Shown: positions 11,512-57,678 of the stretch, piece by piece | How positions within the stretch are numbered: position 1 is the first letter of the stretch | Layout: every line of letters begins with the position of its first letter | Assembly: GCF_947494555.1 (NCBI RefSeq) | Contig: NZ_CANLVF010000009.1 | Span: forward strand, 1 to 64,000 | Direction of reading: 5' to 3' | Source of the DNA: an uncultured Roseibium sp. | Lineage (GTDB): Bacteria; Pseudomonadota; Alphaproteobacteria; Rhizobiales; Stappiaceae | DNA: 64,000 nucleotides | Made by a program: the position numbers and the translations under genes | Notes under the pieces: model-generated | Databases searched by the model: none | Told to the model about the DNA's origin: nothing | What the model saw: only the letters and a program-made list of their open reading frames with translations

Positions 11512-13521
11512 ATGTATTCCGCAATTCTGTTCCTGCCGCTTATCGGCTTCCTGATCGCCGGCCTTTTTGGCCGGACCATCGGGGACAAAGCCTGTGAGTA
11601 TGTCACAAGCGGTCTTGTCATCCTCGCGGCGCTGCTGTCTTGGGTCAGCTTCTTCGGCTATTGGCTCGGCGGCTCCGAACTGCAGATCATCGAGTTGTTC
11701 CGGTGGGTGGATGCGGGCGATCTGAAAGTGTCCTGGTCCATCCGTGTCGACACGTTGACAGCTGTCATGCTGGTGGTGGTGAACACGGTGTCCGCGCTGG
11801 TGCATGTCTATTCAATCGGCTACATGCACCATGATCCGCATCGCCCGCGTTTCTTTGCCTATCTTTCGCTGTTCACCTTTGCGATGCTGTCGCTGGTGAC
11901 GGCCGACAACCTGCTGCAGATGTTCTTCGGCTGGGAAGGCGTTGGCTTGGCGTCCTACCTTCTGATCGGCTTCTGGTACAAGAAACCGTCCGCAAACGCT
12001 GCGGCCATCAAGGCATTTGTCGTCAACCGCATCGGGGACTTCGGGTTCGCGCTCGGGATATTCGGTGTTTTCTATCTCTTCCAGAGCATTGAATTCACCA
12101 CGATCTTCAACGACGCGCCGTCCTTCATAGAGGGCGAAGAGCCGGTTATGTCGTTCCTTGGCTACCAGCTCGACCCGCATGGTGCGATGACCATTGTCTG
12201 CTTGCTGCTTTTCATGGGCGCGATGGGGAAATCCGCGCAGTTCCTGCTCCACACCTGGTTGCCGGACGCGATGGAAGGCCCGACACCGGTGTCGGCTCTC
12301 ATTCACGCTGCAACGATGGTGACTGCAGGTGTCTTCATGGTGGCGCGCCTGTCACCTCTGATGGAGCTTTCGCACACCGCACTTGCCGTCATTGTTTTCT
12401 TTGGTGCAACGACGGCCTTCTTTGCCGCGACAGTCGGTCTTGTCCAGAACGACATCAAGCGCGTGATCGCCTATTCGACCTGTTCGCAGCTCGGATATAT
12501 GTTCGTCGCCCTTGGGGTCGGCGCCTACTCGATCGGTATCTTCCACCTGTTCACGCACGCTTTTTTCAAGGCGCTTCTTTTCCTGTGTGCCGGTTCCGTG
12601 ATCCACGCGGTGTCCGACGAACAGGACATGCGCAAGATGGGCGGGCTTAGGAAACACATTCCGATCACCTACTGGACAATGATGATCGGCACGCTGGCGC
12701 TGACAGGCGTCGGCATTCCGTTCACGCATATCGGCTTTGCCGGGTTTGTTTCGAAAGACGGGATCATCGAGGCCGCCTTTGCGGGTGGCGGCGGTGAGCA
12801 CGCAAATCCGATGGCGCTCTACGGCTTCTGGCTGACCGTGATCGCGGCTGCGCTGACGTCCTTCTATTCCTGGCGTCTGACTTTCATGACCTTCCACGGC
12901 AAGCCGCGCGCACCTGTCGATGTCATGAAACATGTCCATGAGTCACCGCTTGTGATGACCGTGCCTCTGATCCTCCTCTCGATCGGAGCAGTGTTGGCAG
13001 GAATGGTCTTCTACAATTCGTTCTTCTATTCCGAAGAAGCGTACATGGCCTTCTGGGACGGGGCATTGCCCGCCTTTGGCGATCTCCATGTGCTTCATGC
13101 CATGCACGATGTTCCGGCATGGGTCAGGGTATCACCCTTTGTCATGATGGTGGTTGGGTTCCTGGTTGCCTACCAGTTCTACATCCGTTCCCCTGAAATG
13201 CCGAAGAAGCTCGCCGAGCGTCATCAGGGTCTCTACAAGTTCCTCTTGAACAAGTGGTATTTCGACGAGATCTACGACTTCCTTTTTGTCCGCCCGGCGC
13301 TGTGGGTTGGCAGGATGCTCTGGAAGAAGGGGGACGGCGCCGTCATTGACAGGTTTGGCCCCGATGGGATTTCTGCCCGGGTTCAGAACGTGACGTCCTG
13401 GGTCGTCAGGCTCCAGACCGGATATCTTTACCACTACGCATTTGCGATGCTGATCGGTGTAGCTGCGCTGATCACCTGGTCGATGTTCACCGGTGCCGGC
13501 ACCGGCGGGGGTGCACACTAA
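11512..13521 (+). CDS. nuoL: NADH-quinone oxidoreductase subunit L (complex I)
   Basis: Distal proton-pumping antiporter-like subunit, 669 aa. The Q9 block [20 protein letters not shown] and the pump core [20 protein letters not shown] are intact. A long amphipathic lateral helix is expected near the C-terminus ([10 protein letters not shown] region). A TAGGAG site precedes the ATG. Its stop shares one base with the nuoM start (TAATG). Confidence 0.97.
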
Positions 13522-22718: not shown

Positions 22719-24023
22719 ATGACGGCAGCAGATATGGCGGATGTTGGCGAAAGCCAAAAGATGGCAGCTCCCACGCGCCCATTTTCCACATACGAGTGGA
22801 TGATCGCGGGAAGGTATCTGCGCTCCCGGCGCCGGGAAACCTTCATTTCGGTGATTGCCGGATTTTCCTTCGCCGGCATCATGCTGGGCGTTGCAACCCT
22901 GATCATCGTCATGGCGGTGATGAACGGGTTTCGGTCCGAATTGCTCGACAAGATCCTGGGCATCAACGGTCACATGCTGGTGCAGCCGATCGACCTGCCT
23001 CTGAACGATTATGATGCAGTGTCCGAGCGACTGGAAGGCGTGCCGGATGTTGTTGCGGCGTTCCCCTTTATCGAAGGCCAGGCGCTGGTTTCCGGTCCGG
23101 CAGGCAATCTCGGAGCGTTGGTGCGCGGTGTCTATGAGAGCGATCTGCGGCGGATGCCTTTGGTCGCTGAGAACATACATCCAGGATCCATCGACGGTTT
23201 CGATGCGGGTGTAGGCGTTGTCATTGGCTCGCGGATGGCACAGCAGCTTGGCCTGACCGTCGGCGACAATATCACCATCATCTCTCCCCGGGGAAGCGTG
23301 ACGCCGATGGGTGTCACGCCACGGGTCAAGGCGTATCCGGTGTCGGCGATCTTCGAGATCGGAATGAGTGAATACGACGCGACCTTCCTGTTCATGCCGC
23401 TGGAAGAAGCGCAGGCCTATTTCAACATGGGTGACAGGGCGACCGGTATCGAGATCTACGTCGTTGATCCGGACAATGTCAAAGTCATGACAAATGCGAT
23501 CGAGGAGGGGGCAAACAGACCGACATTTGTAACCGACTGGACACAACGCAACGCCACGTTCTTTTCCGCGCTGGAAGTTGAACGCAACGTGATGTTCATC
23601 ATCCTGACGCTGATCGTTCTGGTCGCGGCGCTGAATATAATCTCCGGCCTGATCATGCTGGTCAAAGACAAGGGAAGGGACATCGCGATATTGCGAACCA
23701 TGGGCGCAACGCGTGGCTCCATCATGCGGATCTTCCTGATCACTGGTGCAAGTATCGGCTGTGTCGGCACGCTGGCGGGTTTCATTCTGGGGCTCATTGT
23801 GTGCCTTAATATCGAAAGTATTCGTCAGTTTGTTTCCTGGCTGACATCGACCCAACTCTTCGATCCGACACTATACTTTCTCTCCAAGCTGCCTGCTGAA
23901 ATTGACAGCGGCGAGACGATTACCGTCCTGCTGATGGCGTTGCTGTTATCGCTTCTGGCGACGCTCTATCCGGCCTGGCGCGCGGCGCGTCTCGATCCGG
24001 TCGAAGCTCTTCGGTATGAATGA
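22719..24023 (+). CDS. lolC: Lipoprotein-releasing ABC transporter permease (LolC/LolE family)
   Basis: Inner-membrane permease that, with LolD, extracts lipoproteins for transfer to the outer membrane. About 434 aa. There is one helix near residue 45 ([21 protein letters not shown]), a large periplasmic MacB-type domain, then three C-terminal helices (FtsX domain) ending with the [12 protein letters not shown] signature. A single permease gene pairs with lolD, as is usual in this group. The ATG at 22719 is chosen; another at 22734 is possible. Its stop overlaps the codon just before lolD. Confidence 0.92.
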
Positions 24024-24034
24024 GGAGGCGGGAG

Positions 24035-24763
24035 ATGAATATGGCAGTTGATCCCCGCCGGGCGTCCGGTGCCGCACCTGCGGCGATCGAACTCTCTTCA
24101 ATCGTGAGGAGCTTTGATGAAGGAGACCGCAAGCTCCACATCCTGAAAGGTGCAAATCTCAGGATAGAGCCGGGCGAAATGGTGGCACTTGTCGCGCCAT
24201 CGGGCACAGGCAAATCGACCCTTCTGCACCTTGCCGGACTATTGGAACGTCCCGATGAAGGAGACGTTTTTCTCGGACCGGTGAATTGTTCCGATCTGTC
24301 GGACGATCAGAGAACGGCGATCCGGCGGAATGACATCGGCTTCGTCTACCAGTTTCACCACCTTTTGCCTGAATTCACAGCCTTGGAAAACGTCATGATG
24401 CCGCAACTGATCCGGGGTCTGCCGCGTAAGGTAGCTGCCGAACGGGCGGATGAATTGTTGAAGTACATGCGGCTTGGGGAGAGGGGAAGCCACAGACCCT
24501 CAGAACTGTCCGGTGGTGAACAGCAGCGCGTCGCCGTCGCGCGCGCCGTCGCCAACGCACCCCGCATACTGCTTCTTGACGAGCCAACCGGAAATCTGGA
24601 TCCCAATACAGCACATTATGTGTTTGATGCGCTGGCAGCGCTGGTGCGCGCGTCCGGAGTTGCGACACTGTTCGCCACGCACAATCTGGAGTTAGCCGGA
24701 CGTATGGACCGCGCGATCACGCTCGAAGACGGCCTCGTCAAGGATCTTGAAACAAAGGACTGA
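24035..24763 (+). CDS. lolD: Lipoprotein-releasing ABC transporter ATP-binding protein
   Basis: ATPase of the LolCD exporter, 242 aa. Walker A reads APSGTGKST (Ala at the first position, common in alphaproteobacterial LolD as I recall), the signature is [14 protein letters not shown], and Walker B is [12 protein letters not shown], with the H-loop His in FATHNLELA. The start is fixed by AGGAGG at 24023-24028, six bases before the ATG at 24035. The ATG at 24020, which overlaps the lolC stop, would place that site inside the gene. Confidence 0.94.
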
Positions 24764-24865
24764 AGATCGCGCCCTTGGGGTGTCTTGGTGAGGCAGCGGA
24801 ACAAATCACAAACCTATCGTTTAATTGTCTTTCTGTATGTTTCTCACAAGGGGAACAAAAAGAGC

Positions 24866-24894
24866 TTGCAAAAGGAACAAAGATGGAACATAGT
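24866..24894 (+). promoter_or_regulatory. Predicted LexA-controlled promoter (-35, SOS box, -10)
   Basis: A -35-like TTGCAA (24866-24871) and a -10-like CATAGT (24889-24894) are separated by exactly 17 bases. Between them, and touching the -10, is GAAC-N7-GAAC (24875-24889), the reverse complement of the alphaproteobacterial LexA box GTTC-N7-GTTC. A further GAAC lies at 24853-24856. The box position would let LexA block RNA polymerase directly. It drives the microprotein gene at 24930. Confidence 0.8.
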
Positions 24895-24929
24895 CGCGTT
24901 CATGGAGTGATTGAGCGTTGGAGGGTGAT

Positions 24930-25028
24930 ATGTTCCACATTGCACGTGATTTTGCAGCGTTTGCTTCCCTGGTCTGTTTCTGCACAACAATCGCCGTGTG
25001 GGGGGATGTTTTGTTCGCAGCCGGATAG
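24930..25028 (+). CDS. SOS-controlled membrane microprotein, candidate SidA-like division inhibitor
   Basis: 32 codons, below usual gene-calling limits. A strong GGAGGG (24920-24925) sits four bases before the ATG. The start codon lies about 40 bases after the LexA-box promoter. The peptide begins MFHIARDFAAFAS, continues with a single hydrophobic helix (about residues 8-24, including LVCFCTTIAVWG) and ends LFAAG. Caulobacter SidA is a 29-residue, LexA-repressed inner-membrane protein that halts division through FtsW/FtsN. The size, topology and regulation here match that type. Homology is not proven, and the placement before dnaE is the main further clue. Confidence 0.7.
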   Translation: MFHIARDFAAFASLVCFCTTIAVWGDVLFAAG

Positions 25029-25220
25029 GTTACGGACGTTTCTCCGAACTGAGTGGACTGATTGAATTCACGACGGCTTTTTTGGCACTGCGCATACGAT
25101 GCGTGTGAAATGTTTTCCTGAAGAAAAAGAACAGCGGGTACAATCGGTCATAAGGGTCGACTCAACTTTCGAGACGCGCTTCACTTGGCGGTGATTCCTC
25201 GAAGTGATACGGACCAATTT
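25029..25220. other. Gap between the SOS microprotein and dnaE
   Basis: About 190 bases with no gene. A small CGCAT/ATGCG hairpin (25091-25103) comes after, not before, a T-run (25077-25084), so it is a poor terminator. Transcription from the SOS promoter could therefore run into dnaE. Confidence 0.5.
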
Positions 25221-28200
25221 ATGACCGGCAGTGAAGGCGTATCCGCCGCGCATTCTGAACACTCAATGGCAGGCGAGCGCACTGGAAGTGGCCCCGGGTT
25301 TGTGCATCTGAGGGTGCACTCGGCGCTCTCGCTGCTAGAAGGTGCTTTGCCGATCAAAAAATTGTTGGACCTCGCGAAAGCGGATTCGCAGCCAGCTCTT
25401 GCAATCGCCGACACGAACAATCTCTTTGGGGCGCAGGAATTTTCTGGCAAGGCCTGGAGTGCGGGCATCCAGCCGATCACGGCGTGCCAGCTCTCTATAT
25501 TTTTCGATGATGGTTTCGACAGCGGCCGCAGGGGCGAGCTGGCACTAGCCGATGTCGTTCTGATCGCGATGACAGAAGCCGGCTACGAGAATCTCATGGA
25601 GCTGACATCGAGAGCTTTCCTGGATACGGAAACTGGTCTCAAACCGCATGTGAGCATCGACAAACTGCTGTCCAAGTCAAAGGATGTCATCCTGCTGACC
25701 GGCGGGCATTTCGGCCCTCTTGGAGCAGCGTTGCTTGCGGGACAGAAAGACCTTGCGAAGGTTCGCCTTTCGAAGCTGGCACGCGGGTTTCCGGATCGCT
25801 GCTATGTGGAAATTCAACGGCACGGCATGGAAGCGGAACGCAAGACGGAAGATGCTTTCATCGACCTTGCCTATGAGTTCAACCTACCGCTTGTTGCGAC
25901 CAATGAAGCCTTTTTTCCCAAACGGGAAGATTACGAGGCTCATGACGCCCTGATCTGTATTTCAGAAGGCCGGGTGCTTATCGAAGATGACCGTCGGCGA
26001 CTGACGCCGGAGCACTATTTCAAGTCACGTGACGAAATGTGTGCCCTGTTTTCGGATCTTCCAGAAGCGCTGACATCGACGTTGGAAATTGCACGGCGAT
26101 GCAGTTTCAGGCCTCTCCGGCGGGAGCCTATCCTGCCGAGATTTGCGGGCGCGCAAGCGGATCCGGAAGAGGCTGATCGCGCGGAAGCCGAGGAGCTGAA
26201 ACGCCAGGCCCGCGAAGGGCTTCAAGCACGTCTCGACGCGCACGGTCTAGCGCCGGGACTTGAGGAGAAGGACTACTGGGAACGGCTCGACTACGAGACC
26301 GGGATCATCGAGCGTATGAAATTTCCAGGGTACTTCCTGATCGTTGCCGATTTCATCAAATGGGCAAAAGCCCAGGATATTCCCGTTGGGCCCGGACGCG
26401 GTTCGGGCGCAGGATCGCTAGTCGCCTGGTCTTTGACCATCACCGATCTCGACCCGATGCGCTTTTCGCTTCTGTTCGAACGCTTTCTCAACCCCGAACG
26501 CGTGTCGATGCCGGACTTCGATATCGACTTTTGCCAGAGCCGGCGTGAAGAGGTTATCCGTTACGTTCAGGAAAAATACGGGCGCCAGCAGGTCGCTCAG
26601 ATCATCACGTTCGGATCGCTGCAGGCGCGCGCCGTCCTGAGGGATGTCGGCCGGGTGTTGCAAATGCCTTACGGGCAGGTTGACCGGTTGTGCAAGCTGG
26701 TGCCCGCAAACCCGGCCAATCCGGTTACGCTCGCACAGGCAATCGAGGACGAACCGCGGTTGCGTGAAGCAGCCAAAGAAGAAGAAATAGTCGAACGCCT
26801 GCTGTCGATGGCACAAAAGCTGGAAGGGCTTTACCGGCACGCCTCCACACACGCAGCGGGCGTCGTGATCGGCGACCGTCCGCTGGAGCAGCTTGTTCCT
26901 CTTTATCGAGATCCGCGCTCGGATATGCCGGTCGCGCAGTTCAACATGAAGATGGTTGAGGACGCCGGCCTCGTTAAGTTCGACTTTCTCGGGCTGAAAA
27001 CGCTAACGGTTATCGATACCGCTGTCGCGCTGATCAAACGCCGGGGTGTTGAGGTTGACGTTGCCGGATTGCCGATTGACGACGCCAAGACCTACGAAAT
27101 GCTGGCCCGCGCTGAAACATTTGGCGTGTTTCAGTTGGAAAGTCAGGGCATGCGCCGCGCCGTCGCCGGTATGAAGCCTGACCGGTTCGAGGACATTATC
27201 GCGCTTGTTGCGCTTTATCGTCCCGGTCCGATGGAGAATATTCCAGTCTATAATGCGGTGAAGCATGGAGAGCAGGATCCCGATTGCCTCCACCCGCAGT
27301 TGGAATCGATCCTGCTGGAGACGAACGGGATTATCGTCTACCAGGAACAGGTGATGCAGATCGCGCAAGTGCTGTCCGGCTACTCGCTGGGTGAAGCGGA
27401 TCTGCTGCGGCGCGCGATGGGTAAGAAAATCGCGTCTGAAATGGAGATCCAGCGGGCCCGTTTTGTGAATGGCGCCGTCGAACGCGGCATCAACAAGAGC
27501 CAGGCAGGTACGATCTTCGATCTGGTTGCGAAGTTCGCGAACTATGGCTTCAACAAGTCGCACGCAGCAGCCTACGCGCTTGTGTCCTACCATACAGCCT
27601 GGCTCAAGGCGAACCATCCGGTCGAGTTCATGGCAGCGTCGATGACGCTTGATCTCGGCAACACGGACAAGCTGGGCGATTTTCGCCAGGAAGCCCGGCG
27701 AATGGGTATCGAAATTGTTCAGCCGTCGATCAATCGAAGCCATGTCTACTTTGATGTGGCAGACGGGAAAATCCTTTACGCGATGGGTGCCATCAAAGGG
27801 GTCGGTGAACAGGCAGTCGAGCATATCGTGGAGATGCGCGGCAACGAACCGTTCAAGAGCCTTGGAGACTTCGCACGGCGTATTTCACCGAGATTCCTCA
27901 ACAAGCGCACGCTTGAAAATCTTGTTGCGGCGGGTGCTTTTGATGAACTTGAAACCAGCCGCGCGCGCGTCTTTGAGGGTATCGACCGGATAATGGGACT
28001 GGCACAGCGCACCGAAGAAAACCGGACACTCGGGCAAGACGAACTCTTTGGCGCCAGCGACAGCGAAGAGCCCTTGCAACTGGATGAGGTCCACGGTTGG
28101 ACCAACGATGAAAAACTTCAGCGCGAACATGCAGCCATCGGCTTTTATCTCTCAGCGCATCCAATCGACGAATATGCGGCTGTGCTTGAAAAGATGCGGG

Positions 28201-28724
28201 CGCAACCCTGGAGCCAATTTGCCGAAGCAGTAAAACGCGGTGCCTCGCATGGTCGGCTGGCGGGGACCGTTGTTTCGATGCAGGAACGCAAGACACGCAC
28301 CGGAACCCGCATGGGAATTGCACGGCTCTCCGATGCGACCGGTCAGTATGAGGCACTGCTATTCAGGGAAAAACTCGAGCAATATCGTGACGTGCTTCAG
28401 CCCGGACGTTCCGTGGTCGTGCTCGTGGGCGCGGATATGAGGGACGAAGAGCCGTCGCTGCGGATCGAGCAAGTCGATCCGATTGATAAGGTTGCGGCCA
28501 GGCTTCAAAAGAGCATGCGCGTCTTTTTGAGAGATGAGCGCCCGATCCAAAGTCTTGCAAAACAACTCAGACTGAAAGGTGAGGGCGACGTGACCGTTGT
28601 CATTCTTTTGGAGAACGGTGCCCAGGAAGTTGAGGTTAAACTCCCTGGACGGTTCCGGCTTTCACCGGAAATAGCCGGCGCTTTGAAAGCCGTGCCCGGT
28701 GTGACTGACGTTCAGATGGCGTAA
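25221..28724 (+). CDS. dnaE: DNA polymerase III subunit alpha (replicative)
   Basis: Catalytic subunit of the replicase, 1167 aa from the ATG at 25221. A PHP domain opens with VHLRVHSALSLLEGA. The palm carries the catalytic aspartates in PDFDIDF with the GPGRGSGAGSLV block before it. The KSHAAAYALVSYHTAWLK region and a C-terminal OB domain (GRLAGTVVSMQERKTRTGTRM) follow. Length and domain order fit DnaE1, not the error-prone DnaE2/ImuC. The start is uncertain: TTG 25185, ATG 25221 and ATG 25266 are all possible, none with a strong ribosome site. Confidence 0.94.
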   Translation: MTGSEGVSAAHSEHSMAGERTGSGPGFVHLRVHSALSLLEGALPIKKLLDLAKADSQPALAIADTNNLFGAQEFSGKAWSAGIQPITACQLSIFFDDGFDSGRRGELALADVVLIAMTEAGYENLMELTSRAFLDTETGLKPHVSIDKLLSKSKDVILLTGGHFGPLGAALLAGQKDLAKVRLSKLARGFPDRCYVEIQRHGMEAERKTEDAFIDLAYEFNLPLVATNEAFFPKREDYEAHDALICISEGRVLIEDDRRRLTPEHYFKSRDEMCALFSDLPEALTSTLEIARRCSFRPLRREPILPRFAGAQADPEEADRAEAEELKRQAREGLQARLDAHGLAPGLEEKDYWERLDYETGIIERMKFPGYFLIVADFIKWAKAQDIPVGPGRGSGAGSLVAWSLTITDLDPMRFSLLFERFLNPERVSMPDFDIDFCQSRREEVIRYVQEKYGRQQVAQIITFGSLQARAVLRDVGRVLQMPYGQVDRLCKLVPANPANPVTLAQAIEDEPRLREAAKEEEIVERLLSMAQKLEGLYRHASTHAAGVVIGDRPLEQLVPLYRDPRSDMPVAQFNMKMVEDAGLVKFDFLGLKTLTVIDTAVALIKRRGVEVDVAGLPIDDAKTYEMLARAETFGVFQLESQGMRRAVAGMKPDRFEDIIALVALYRPGPMENIPVYNAVKHGEQDPDCLHPQLESILLETNGIIVYQEQVMQIAQVLSGYSLGEADLLRRAMGKKIASEMEIQRARFVNGAVERGINKSQAGTIFDLVAKFANYGFNKSHAAAYALVSYHTAWLKANHPVEFMAASMTLDLGNTDKLGDFRQEARRMGIEIVQPSINRSHVYFDVADGKILYAMGAIKGVGEQAVEHIVEMRGNEPFKSLGDFARRISPRFLNKRTLENLVAAGAFDELETSRARVFEGIDRIMGLAQRTEENRTLGQDELFGASDSEEPLQLDEVHGWTNDEKLQREHAAIGFYLSAHPIDEYAAVLEKMRAQPWSQFAEAVKRGASHGRLAGTVVSMQERKTRTGTRMGIARLSDATGQYEALLFREKLEQYRDVLQPGRSVVVLVGADMRDEEPSLRIEQVDPIDKVAARLQKSMRVFLRDERPIQSLAKQLRLKGEGDVTVVILLENGAQEVEVKLPGRFRLSPEIAGALKAVPGVTDVQMA

Positions 28725-33597: not shown

Positions 33598-34365
33598 ATG
33601 AGCGTCAGCCCGAATCCCAACCCGCAAGCACCTGCCGATGAAGGTACTCATACCCGGTTGCCGCATCACGTTGCCTTTATCATGGACGGCAACGGCCGAT
33701 GGGCAACAGCGCGCGGACTGCCGAGAACGGAAGGGCACCGGCAGGGTCTTGAAGCGCTGCGTGCCGCGATCCGGCATGCCGGGAATGTCGGCGTAAAGAT
33801 CGTTACAATCTACAGTTTTTCCTCCGAAAACTGGAACAGACCCGCAAGCGAAGTTTCATTTCTCATGGGACTGCTGAAGCGCTTTGTCCAGCGGGATCTC
33901 AGCGAGCTGCACAAGGCAAATGTCCGAATTCGCATTATCGGTGGAAGAAGCGATCTCGAGCCGGGAATTTTAACTCTTCTGGAAGAGGCAGAGGACCTTA
34001 CGCGCAAAAACACGGGGCTCGATCTTGTTGTCGCGTTCAACTACGGTTCGCGAGCGGAAATCGTGCGGACAGCACAGCACCTCGCGCAGCAGGTTGCAGA
34101 TGGAGAGCTGCGAGTAGAGGATATCTCAGAGAAGATTTTCTCACAAAATCTCGACACCGGCGGTTTGTCCGATCCCGACCTGATTATCCGAACCAGCGGG
34201 GAAATGCGGCTTTCGAACTTTCTCCTTTGGCAGGCGGCCTATTCCGAGTTTTACTTCTGTGACGTGAATTGGCCAGACTTTGATGAAGCAGCGTTTGATG
34301 AGGCGCTCCAGTGTTTTGGCAATCGCGAGAGACGCTTTGGCGCCCTTGATGCCAAGGCGCTTTGA
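33598..34365 (+). CDS. uppS: Isoprenyl transferase (undecaprenyl diphosphate synthase)
   Basis: Makes undecaprenyl diphosphate, the lipid carrier for cell-wall glycans. 255 aa. The substrate motif [13 protein letters not shown] (catalytic Asp) lies near residue 22, with SSENWNRP near 80 and the C-terminal [21 protein letters not shown] block. The ATG at 33598 follows GGGGGAG. Confidence 0.96.
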
Positions 34366-54382: not shown

Positions 54383-55093
54383 TTAGTATTGGCGGAAAAG
54401 GGCAACCAAACGACCTTGGACACGCACTCTGCCAGGGCCGAAGATGCGCGTTTCATAAGCTGGATTGGCCGCTTCAAGGGCGATGGATGCGCCCTTCTTG
54501 CGCAGACGCTTGAGCGTGGCTTCTTCCTCGTCAACCAGTGCCACGACGATATCACCACTGTCCGCACTGTCGGTTCTGCGTATCAGAACCGTGTCACCGT
54601 CCAGAATTCCAGCTTCAATCATGGAATCGCCGCGCACTTCAAGAGCGTAGTGCTCGCCTTTTCCCAGAAGTTCCGGCGGCACGGAAATCGAATGACTGTG
54701 GGTCTGGATTGCTTCTATCGGGACGCCTGCCGCGATGCGGCCCATGACCGGAATCTCCGTTCCCTGTACCACCGGTTCAGGAGCGGGGCGCGGGGGCTCC
54801 AATTTCCCGAGCGAACCCTCAATGACCTCGGGCGAAAAACTGCCCCGGGGCCGTGGAGCGCCCAATCCAGGCGCTATGGAGTCGGGAAGGCGTACTACCT
54901 CCATCGCGCGCGCACGGTTGGGAAGCCGTCTTATGAAGCCCCGTTCCTCGAGCGCTGTAATCAGTCGATGGATACCGGACTTGGAACGAAGGTCCAAAGC
55001 ATCCTTCATTTCATCAAAAGACGGCGGAACACCCGTTTCCTTGAGTCTTTCGTGAATGAACATGAGCAGTTCGTACTGCTTGCGCGTGAGCAT
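54383..55093 (-). CDS. lexA: LexA repressor
   Basis: SOS master repressor, 236 aa. An N-terminal winged helix ([38 protein letters not shown]) is followed by the self-cleavage domain with cleavage bond Ala122-Gly123, nucleophile Ser157 (GDSMIEAG) and Lys195 (ATLKRL), all intact. The linker is longer and Pro-rich compared with E. coli. The start at 55091-55093 follows AGGGGAAG on the minus strand; an upstream in-frame codon at 55168 would lie within the operator region. Two SOS boxes lie just upstream. Confidence 0.96.
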
Positions 55094-55148
55094 TTTTAGC
55101 TTCCCCTGACCACAGAATGGGCTGGTACAAATCAAGAACAATCTACCT

Positions 55149-55163
55149 GTTCCTATTGTGTTC
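55149..55163. promoter_or_regulatory. SOS (LexA) box 1 upstream of lexA
   Basis: GTTC (55149-55152), seven bases, GTTC (55160-55163): exact match to the alphaproteobacterial LexA operator. It lies 56 bases upstream of the lexA start codon. Confidence 0.88.
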
Positions 55164-55176
55164 TGCAAGGGTAAAT

Positions 55177-55191
55177 GTTCTCTTACTGTTC
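55177..55191. promoter_or_regulatory. SOS (LexA) box 2 upstream of lexA
   Basis: GTTC (55177-55180), seven bases, GTTC (55188-55191). Centre-to-centre distance from box 1 is 28 bases. A tandem pair suggests tight autoregulation of lexA. Confidence 0.85.
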
Positions 55192-56101: not shown

Positions 56102-57678
56102 AGTAAGCCTTCTTCGGCGAGAAACTCACGCACGAGCTTTTTGGTGATCTTGCCGTAGGCACTTGTCGGCATCGTTTCAATGAATAGGTATTTGGCCGGC
56201 ATCTTGTAGCGGGCAATCTTTCCGGCGAGATAGTTCGTCAGCTCCTCTGCCAAGTCGCGATTTTCACCTGCCGCAACACAAACTGCCAGTCCGATTTCTC
56301 CCCATTGCGGGTCCGGGATTCCAAGTATGGCCACCTCAGAAATACCTGGGTGCGTCAGAAGAACTTCTTCGATTTCCTTCGGATACACGTTCGAGCCACC
56401 GGAGATGTACATGTCGGAAGCGCGCCCGGTCAGATAGAGATAGCGTTTCTCGTCAAGGTGTCCGATATCTCCCGTGCGGAACCAGCCGTTTCGAAACGAT
56501 GCTTCGTTCGCTGCAACGTCTTCAAGATAACCGGCGCAGACCGCTGGTCCGATCACGCACACTTCACCGGTCTCGCCTGGCGGTAGCATGTTGCCTTCGT
56601 CATCCTGGATGCTGACCTCGATTCCCGTGCGTTCTGTACCGCATGTCCCGATCCTGGTTTCGGGGCCATCTTCCAGAAAATGATCCTGCGGGCGCAGGAC
56701 GGTAATGTTTCCGGTGACTTCGCCCAAGCCGTAGTACTGAACCAGAACGTGTCCGAGCTTTTCAAGCGCGTGTTTCTGGTCTTCCCGATACATCGGCGCT
56801 CCAGCATAAATCACGTGCCGGAGGCTTGAATGATCGTATCGGTCGACCGATGGATCCTCGACCAGCCGCTTCACGATTGTTGGAACCGTAAACATGTTGC
56901 TGACACGGTGCTTTTCGATCAGCTCAAATGCGACTGCGGGATTGAAACCACCCCTTGGAATCAAAACATGCGTTGTTCCCAAAGGAAGCTGGGCGATCTG
57001 TTGCAGGCCCGCGCCATGGGATAGGGGAGCGATCACGAGCGAGGCGTCCTGTTCGCTCGTGCCGGGAATGAGATCTGCCAGGTAATTGACGGTCACAAAG
57101 CCGATCTGGCCATGCGTGAGAACAACTGCCTTGGGTTTGCCTGTCGAGCCGGACGTGAAGAAAAGCCAGCAGGGATCGTTGTAGTCGACTGCTTCATCGG
57201 CAAACGGTTCACCGAGGTGTTCAGAAATGAGGTCTTCGTACGATGCACCGAATGTGCTGGTTCCAATGCTGATTGTACCGGCGAGATCAGGGATTTCGGC
57301 ATGCACGGCGTTCGCCTGATCCTCAAAGTCCGCATCGCACACGAAGATCTTCGCTCCGGCCTTGCGCGCAGCAAATGCGGTTTCACCCGGTGCCTGACGA
57401 AAATTGCAGGGTACCCAGACCGCACCGAGGCGAAAGGCTGCGAGCATGGTTTCGCACATCTGATTGGAGTTTTGCGCCTGAACCAGAATACTGTCGCCTT
57501 TTGCAATGCCGAATTTGCGCTCGAGGACATGGCAGAGTGCGCTCACTCTTTGATCGAGATCATCCCAGGTCCAGGTCCTGTCTTCCCAGACGATCGAGGA
57601 ATGCGCCGGCCAACGCCGGGCATTCTTCGTCAGGTAGTGCGCCAGGTTGGGAACTCGATTCGAACAGCGCTCAATCAT
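56098..57678 (-). CDS. AMP-dependent acyl-CoA synthetase/ligase
   Basis: ANL-superfamily enzyme activating a carboxylic acid to its CoA thioester via an acyl-AMP, 526 aa from the ATG at 57676-57678. The P-loop-like motif FFTSGSTGKPKAVVLTHG (near 175), YYGLGEVTGN, the hinge GWFRTGDIGHLDEKRYLYLTGR and the C-terminal PTSAYGKITKK lysine are all present, so it should be active. Substrate (aromatic, medium-chain or other) is not readable. A GTG at 57754-57756 would add 26 residues. Confidence 0.88.
   Translation of the reverse strand: MIERCSNRVPNLAHYLTKNARRWPAHSSIVWEDRTWTWDDLDQRVSALCHVLERKFGIAKGDSILVQAQNSNQMCETMLAAFRLGAVWVPCNFRQAPGETAFAARKAGAKIFVCDADFEDQANAVHAEIPDLAGTISIGTSTFGASYEDLISEHLGEPFADEAVDYNDPCWLFFTSGSTGKPKAVVLTHGQIGFVTVNYLADLIPGTSEQDASLVIAPLSHGAGLQQIAQLPLGTTHVLIPRGGFNPAVAFELIEKHRVSNMFTVPTIVKRLVEDPSVDRYDHSSLRHVIYAGAPMYREDQKHALEKLGHVLVQYYGLGEVTGNITVLRPQDHFLEDGPETRIGTCGTERTGIEVSIQDDEGNMLPPGETGEVCVIGPAVCAGYLEDVAANEASFRNGWFRTGDIGHLDEKRYLYLTGRASDMYISGGSNVYPKEIEEVLLTHPGISEVAILGIPDPQWGEIGLAVCVAAGENRDLAEELTNYLAGKIARYKMPAKYLFIETMPTSAYGKITKKLVREFLAEEGLL

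Follow-up and report, generated by a model that had tools for sequence, protein, structure and literature searches.

The locus examined here raises the question of whether a 32-codon open reading frame (ORF), situated before dnaE and behind a LexA-type box, encodes a SidA-type checkpoint, i.e., a small membrane peptide that would arrest cell division upon DNA damage, as proposed in a sequence-only reading of the same DNA. The window referred to below is the whole stretch of 64,000 nt that was analysed.

Organization of the promoter and the ORF

All the elements of the locus map to the + strand. The −35 (TTGCAA, 24866..24871) and −10 (CATAGT, 24889..24894) sequences are separated by a spacer of 17 bases, inside which lies a putative LexA operator, GAAC-N7-GAAC (GAACAAAGATGGAAC, 24875..24889), overlapping the −10 element by one base. 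A ribosome binding site (GGAGGG, 24920..24925) precedes the ORF (24930..25028), which starts with the ATG at 24930 and whose stop codon ends at 25028. The box, the promoter pair with its 17-base spacing, the GGAGGG and the 32-codon ORF were already part of the initial description, and each of them was found where it had been placed. A promoter scan requiring at least 9 of 12 matches to the consensus did not list the TTGCAA/CATAGT pair, which scores 8/12. An in-frame TTG at 24918 would extend the product to 36 residues; from the position of the ribosome binding site, ATG 24930 is preferred. A third GAAC half-site occurs at 24853..24856, 22 bases upstream of the first GAAC of the box, an offset of two box spacings (11 bases each); this half-site was present in 45/45 loci from the genus and, at the same offset, in 0/42 loci from other families of the order.

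The deduced peptide was modeled by AlphaFold2, from the single sequence and without an alignment, as a single helix spanning residues 2–31 (mean pLDDT 89.5), so that its 32 residues and one predicted hydrophobic helix agree with the ca. 29 residues and single membrane helix expected of SidA. The helix had also been described as Cys-rich; the window peptide does contain cysteines, but they are not common to the wider family. As the earlier reading pointed out, a gene of this size is easily missed by annotation. Searches of NCBIfam and Pfam with the peptide returned no family above the cut-off. The Pfam match to DAGK_prokar (E 0.059, 13.7 bits versus a cut-off of 22.3) was judged to be due to chance. 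No Rfam match was found between positions 24700 and 25300 up to an E value of 1.

Occurrence of the box in the window and the genome

The box word occurs six times in the window, compared to a mean of 2.85 in shuffled sequences, and 8 of 100 shuffles reached six; in the whole genome there are 300 occurrences versus 217 for the word read backwards. The word alone is thus near chance in the window, and conservation has to decide on its relevance. Two of the boxes (55149-55163 and 55177-55191, − strand), identified by word search, lie before lexA, the presumed regulator, whose longest ORF extends over 54383..55168 (− strand), with a TIGR00498 match at 54389-55096 and a likely ATG ca. 75 bases inside. 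This is the only lexA match in the genome. There is also a box 186 bases upstream of the recA match. The other three words (13176-13190, 34035-34049, and 57651-57665) are within long ORFs and look like chance occurrences. The SOS box of Caulobacter is GTTC-N7-GTTC, the same word on the opposite strand, according to the accessible text of PMC9578287. The presence of the word before the genome's own lexA and recA genes, as well as at the promoter of the short ORF throughout the genus (see below), agrees with a LexA operator at this promoter.

Selection on the control region and the peptide

The peptide is encoded in 45/45 genomes of the same genus, including that of the window (weakest E value 1.9e-6), and matches were found in 71 of 87 genomes of the family (E ≤ 0.05). 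In the 45 genus loci the box is invariably situated 51–61 bases upstream of the ATG, being exact in 38 and containing one mismatch in seven. The −35 hexamer is exact in 38/45 loci, the CAT of the −10 element is kept in 42/45 and the GGAG core of the ribosome binding site is retained, apart from a few exceptions, throughout the alignment of the genus. Among 25 relatives from the genus, identity to the window was 88% for the promoter/operator and 75% for the ORF, versus 40% and 41% for the flanking gaps. The pN/pS ratio, calculated from 44 of the 45 genus loci after dropping one of differing length, was 0.23 in the frame of the ORF versus 1.39 and 1.95 in the other two frames; likewise, the median Ka/Ks was 0.13, and all 552 pairs with unsaturated silent sites were below 1, as corresponds to purifying selection. 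Judged from these comparisons, selection acts on the amino acid sequence as well as on the control region. Loss of the frame in relatives had been named beforehand as an observation that would refute the proposed checkpoint; the frame was found to be conserved.

The ORF is flanked by an upstream ABC transporter ATPase gene (24020..24763, + strand), present in 65/71 family loci, and by dnaE, coding for the alpha subunit of DNA polymerase III (25221..28724, + strand; TIGR00594 match), for which we chose the ATG at 25221 within an ORF that opens at 25185. The upstream gene is presumably lolD, as it was named in the earlier reading. The peptide gene adjoins dnaE in 71/71 family loci, and the three genes were collinear on one strand in the 64/64 family loci where all of them were found by tblastn, a search that did not report the peptide in two family loci. 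This constant proximity to dnaE, seen in every family locus checked, would also be expected if the box controlled dnaE and the ORF were a leader peptide tuning expression of the polymerase. Nevertheless, conservation concerns the residues and goes beyond the frame alone, the 192 bases from the stop codon to dnaE are unconserved (41%), and the stretch up to the dnaE match varies from 41 to 338 bases across the order, making a leader peptide very unlikely.

Distribution upstream of dnaE in the order and the class

A first search of the order with a single peptide as query gave matches in 69/199 genomes (E ≤ 1), and 15 of 26 loci retained from outside the family adjoined dnaE, the rest being taken as noise. 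A class-wide profile search identified 47/385 genomes (E ≤ 0.1), but only 5 of 29 new loci had a dnaE match, and the survey was therefore anchored on dnaE instead. TIGR00594 located dnaE in 108 of 111 genomes of the order, and the upstream stretch was examined in 98 of these 108 loci, including that of the window. An exact box was present within 700 bases upstream of dnaE in 50/98 loci, and was followed by a hydrophobic ORF of 22–45 residues in 45/98; with the 11 other arrangements of the four letters GAAC, used as controls, these figures were 0–3/98 and 0–1/98, respectively. The 45 loci with box and ORF are distributed over 28 of the 50 families sampled in the order. A stricter motif rule retained 43/98 loci, leaving out two doubtful ones (L386 and L325). 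The exact box was absent before dnaE in the remaining 48/98 loci of the order, a figure that counts against the checkpoint reading.

The promoter context of the box also extends to the order: TTGACA was found ca. 9 bases upstream of the box as an exact match in 19 of 44 loci and with a single mismatch in another 11 of 44, compared to no exact matches and 4% with one mismatch at control positions. This fixed distance indicates that the box occupies the promoter spacer across the order. In the class-wide set, which comprised 90 of 108 dnaE loci drawn from 115 genomes, ten loci had a box in the same direction within 1,000 bases, and nine of these ten had a hydrophobic ORF behind it.

Homology to a dnaE-linked ORF of Caulobacter

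One family of the class contains a 29-residue ORF at the same place before dnaE (locus L199). Matches were found in 123/149 genomes of this family at E ≤ 0.5, many of them weak. Fifty of its loci, 30 from the search and 20 picked by us, were checked: dnaE was present in 50/50, and the exact box followed by the ORF in 42/50. In one Caulobacteraceae-like genus (L225–L246), the peptide of several loci is preceded by a pair of exact boxes at a distance of 18 bases from each other. We also examined 24 loci from named genomes, located with the DnaE N-terminus of one Caulobacter-side genome. The box and the 29-residue ORF were present in 11/24, including Caulobacter vibrioides DSM 9893 and OR37, and were not found by the same test in another 11/24 (two Caulobacter, Dongia, Cypionkella, Pseudorhodobacter and their kin); the upstream sequence was too short in the other two. 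In DSM 9893, the ORF is preceded by GGAGG and by a promoter in which TTGCAG is combined with the box. SidA has 29 residues, is controlled by LexA, induced in the SOS response and acts on FtsW (PMC4211646 and PMC12700426, accessible text); its gene is CCNA_02004 (PMC10769358) and dnaE is CC1926 (PMC1839093), as given in the available parts of these papers. From this combination of length, regulation and gene numbers, we strongly infer that the 29-residue ORF before dnaE in C. vibrioides is SidA.

The window-side and Caulobacter-side peptides were compared with hhalign (23 peptides each), which produced an alignment of 21 columns beginning at residue 1 of both sides, with a probability of 84.8 and an E value of 6.5e-6. 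Our own profile comparison (32 versus 23 peptides) yielded a score of 19.9, versus 6.8 for the reversed profile. The real score was reached in 0/500 controls with all columns shuffled (mean 7.3, sd 1.6, largest 13.8) and in 0/500 controls shuffled within hydrophobic and other classes (mean 7.5, sd 1.8, largest 14.6). The N-terminal part of both sets shares the motif (A)R(D/E)xxAxxSxxxF. Their second halves have diverged, and that of the window-side peptides contains an invariant Trp. The restriction of the homology to the N-terminal 21 columns, and an hhalign probability of 84.8 that is not near 100, are points against assignment to SidA. Still, on sequence evidence the gene is real, and its homology to the Caulobacter-side set, whose dnaE-linked ORF is taken as SidA, together with its place before dnaE in the family as in DSM 9893 and OR37, assigns it to the SidA family, with a putative function.

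TisB is a small membrane peptide with a single helix that is induced in the SOS response. Similarly, DinQ is an SOS-regulated toxic peptide with a single transmembrane segment (PMC3567139, accessible text). Size, single helix and LexA control of the window peptide would also fit such a product, which would lower the membrane potential and halt growth without targeting the divisome. We consider this improbable: homology and position match the dnaE-linked ORF of Caulobacter, purifying selection and the conserved RD/E motif exceed what mere hydrophobicity would require, and the region has no Rfam RNA, although an unlisted antisense RNA could still exist.

FtsW as the putative division target

In the earlier reading, Caulobacter SidA was described as blocking division through FtsW and FtsN. 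The first of these proteins is the binding partner of SidA, but FtsN is instead that of DidA, as described in the available part of PMC4211646. FtsW is encoded in the genome of the window (L392) and has Leu and Ser at the positions of F145 and A246, respectively, of Caulobacter FtsW (numbering based on the Caulobacter-like FtsW that begins with MASN). In Caulobacter, FtsW mutations F145L and A246T relieve the effect of both SidA and DidA, and A246T leaves binding of SidA to FtsW intact (PMC4211646, accessible text). The differences at positions 145 and 246 argue against a plain duplicate of the Caulobacter system but, since binding is kept in A246T, they are not decisive. These same differences, along with the diverged second half and the invariant Trp of the window-side set, could point to a SidA-family SOS peptide directed in this order to another envelope or septum protein. 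However, the N-terminal half is conserved and, given the behaviour of A246T (PMC4211646, accessible text), the FtsW differences need not matter; hence, a target other than FtsW appears unlikely.

The box within the promoter spacer, the selected frame, the single helix, the place before dnaE and the homology all support the original proposal, and the 32-codon gene quite probably codes for an SOS checkpoint protein and division inhibitor of the SidA family. As a SidA-type peptide, it would be silent as long as LexA holds the promoter shut. DNA damage would lead to activation of RecA, cleavage of LexA and synthesis of the peptide, which would be inserted in the inner membrane in such a way that the short, charged N-terminal end lies inside, and would keep the septal FtsW/FtsI/FtsN complex inactive until the damage is repaired.

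Comparison with known systems

SidA is probably an old SOS division brake of alphaproteobacteria and not a speciality of Caulobacter. In over half of the families sampled in the order, it would have kept its position upstream of dnaE, with a LexA box occupying the promoter spacer, and it would have been overlooked owing to its size of ca. 30 codons and its fast-changing second half. The parts of the literature covered by our search named no SidA homologue outside Caulobacter, and an earlier mention may exist; the term "SidA" in PMC8111173 is the name of an institute and not of a protein. Should the same gene be present across the class, many alphaproteobacteria would have a damage checkpoint that can be tested at one named place, and a large set of diverged peptides would reveal the residues needed to stop division. 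The lasting linkage of a division brake to the gene for the replication polymerase would then be an evolutionary question in itself.

The window peptide resembles SidA of Caulobacter crescentus in its LexA-type box, its length of ca. 30 residues, its single helix and its homologous N-terminal half, and its place before dnaE matches that of the 29-residue ORF of C. vibrioides. The window locus differs in the diverged second half of the peptide, a longer gap, the presence of lolD directly upstream, and the changes at positions 145 and 246 of FtsW. DidA, also from C. crescentus and compared here by its description, is likewise a small division inhibitor with one helix that is induced by DNA damage but, in contrast to the window peptide, it has 71 residues, is independent of the SOS response (DriD) and binds FtsN (PMC4211646, accessible text). 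YneA from Bacillus subtilis and SosA from Staphylococcus aureus are, as far as the available descriptions go, also SOS-induced membrane inhibitors of division, and YneA also contacts FtsW; both belong to another phylum.
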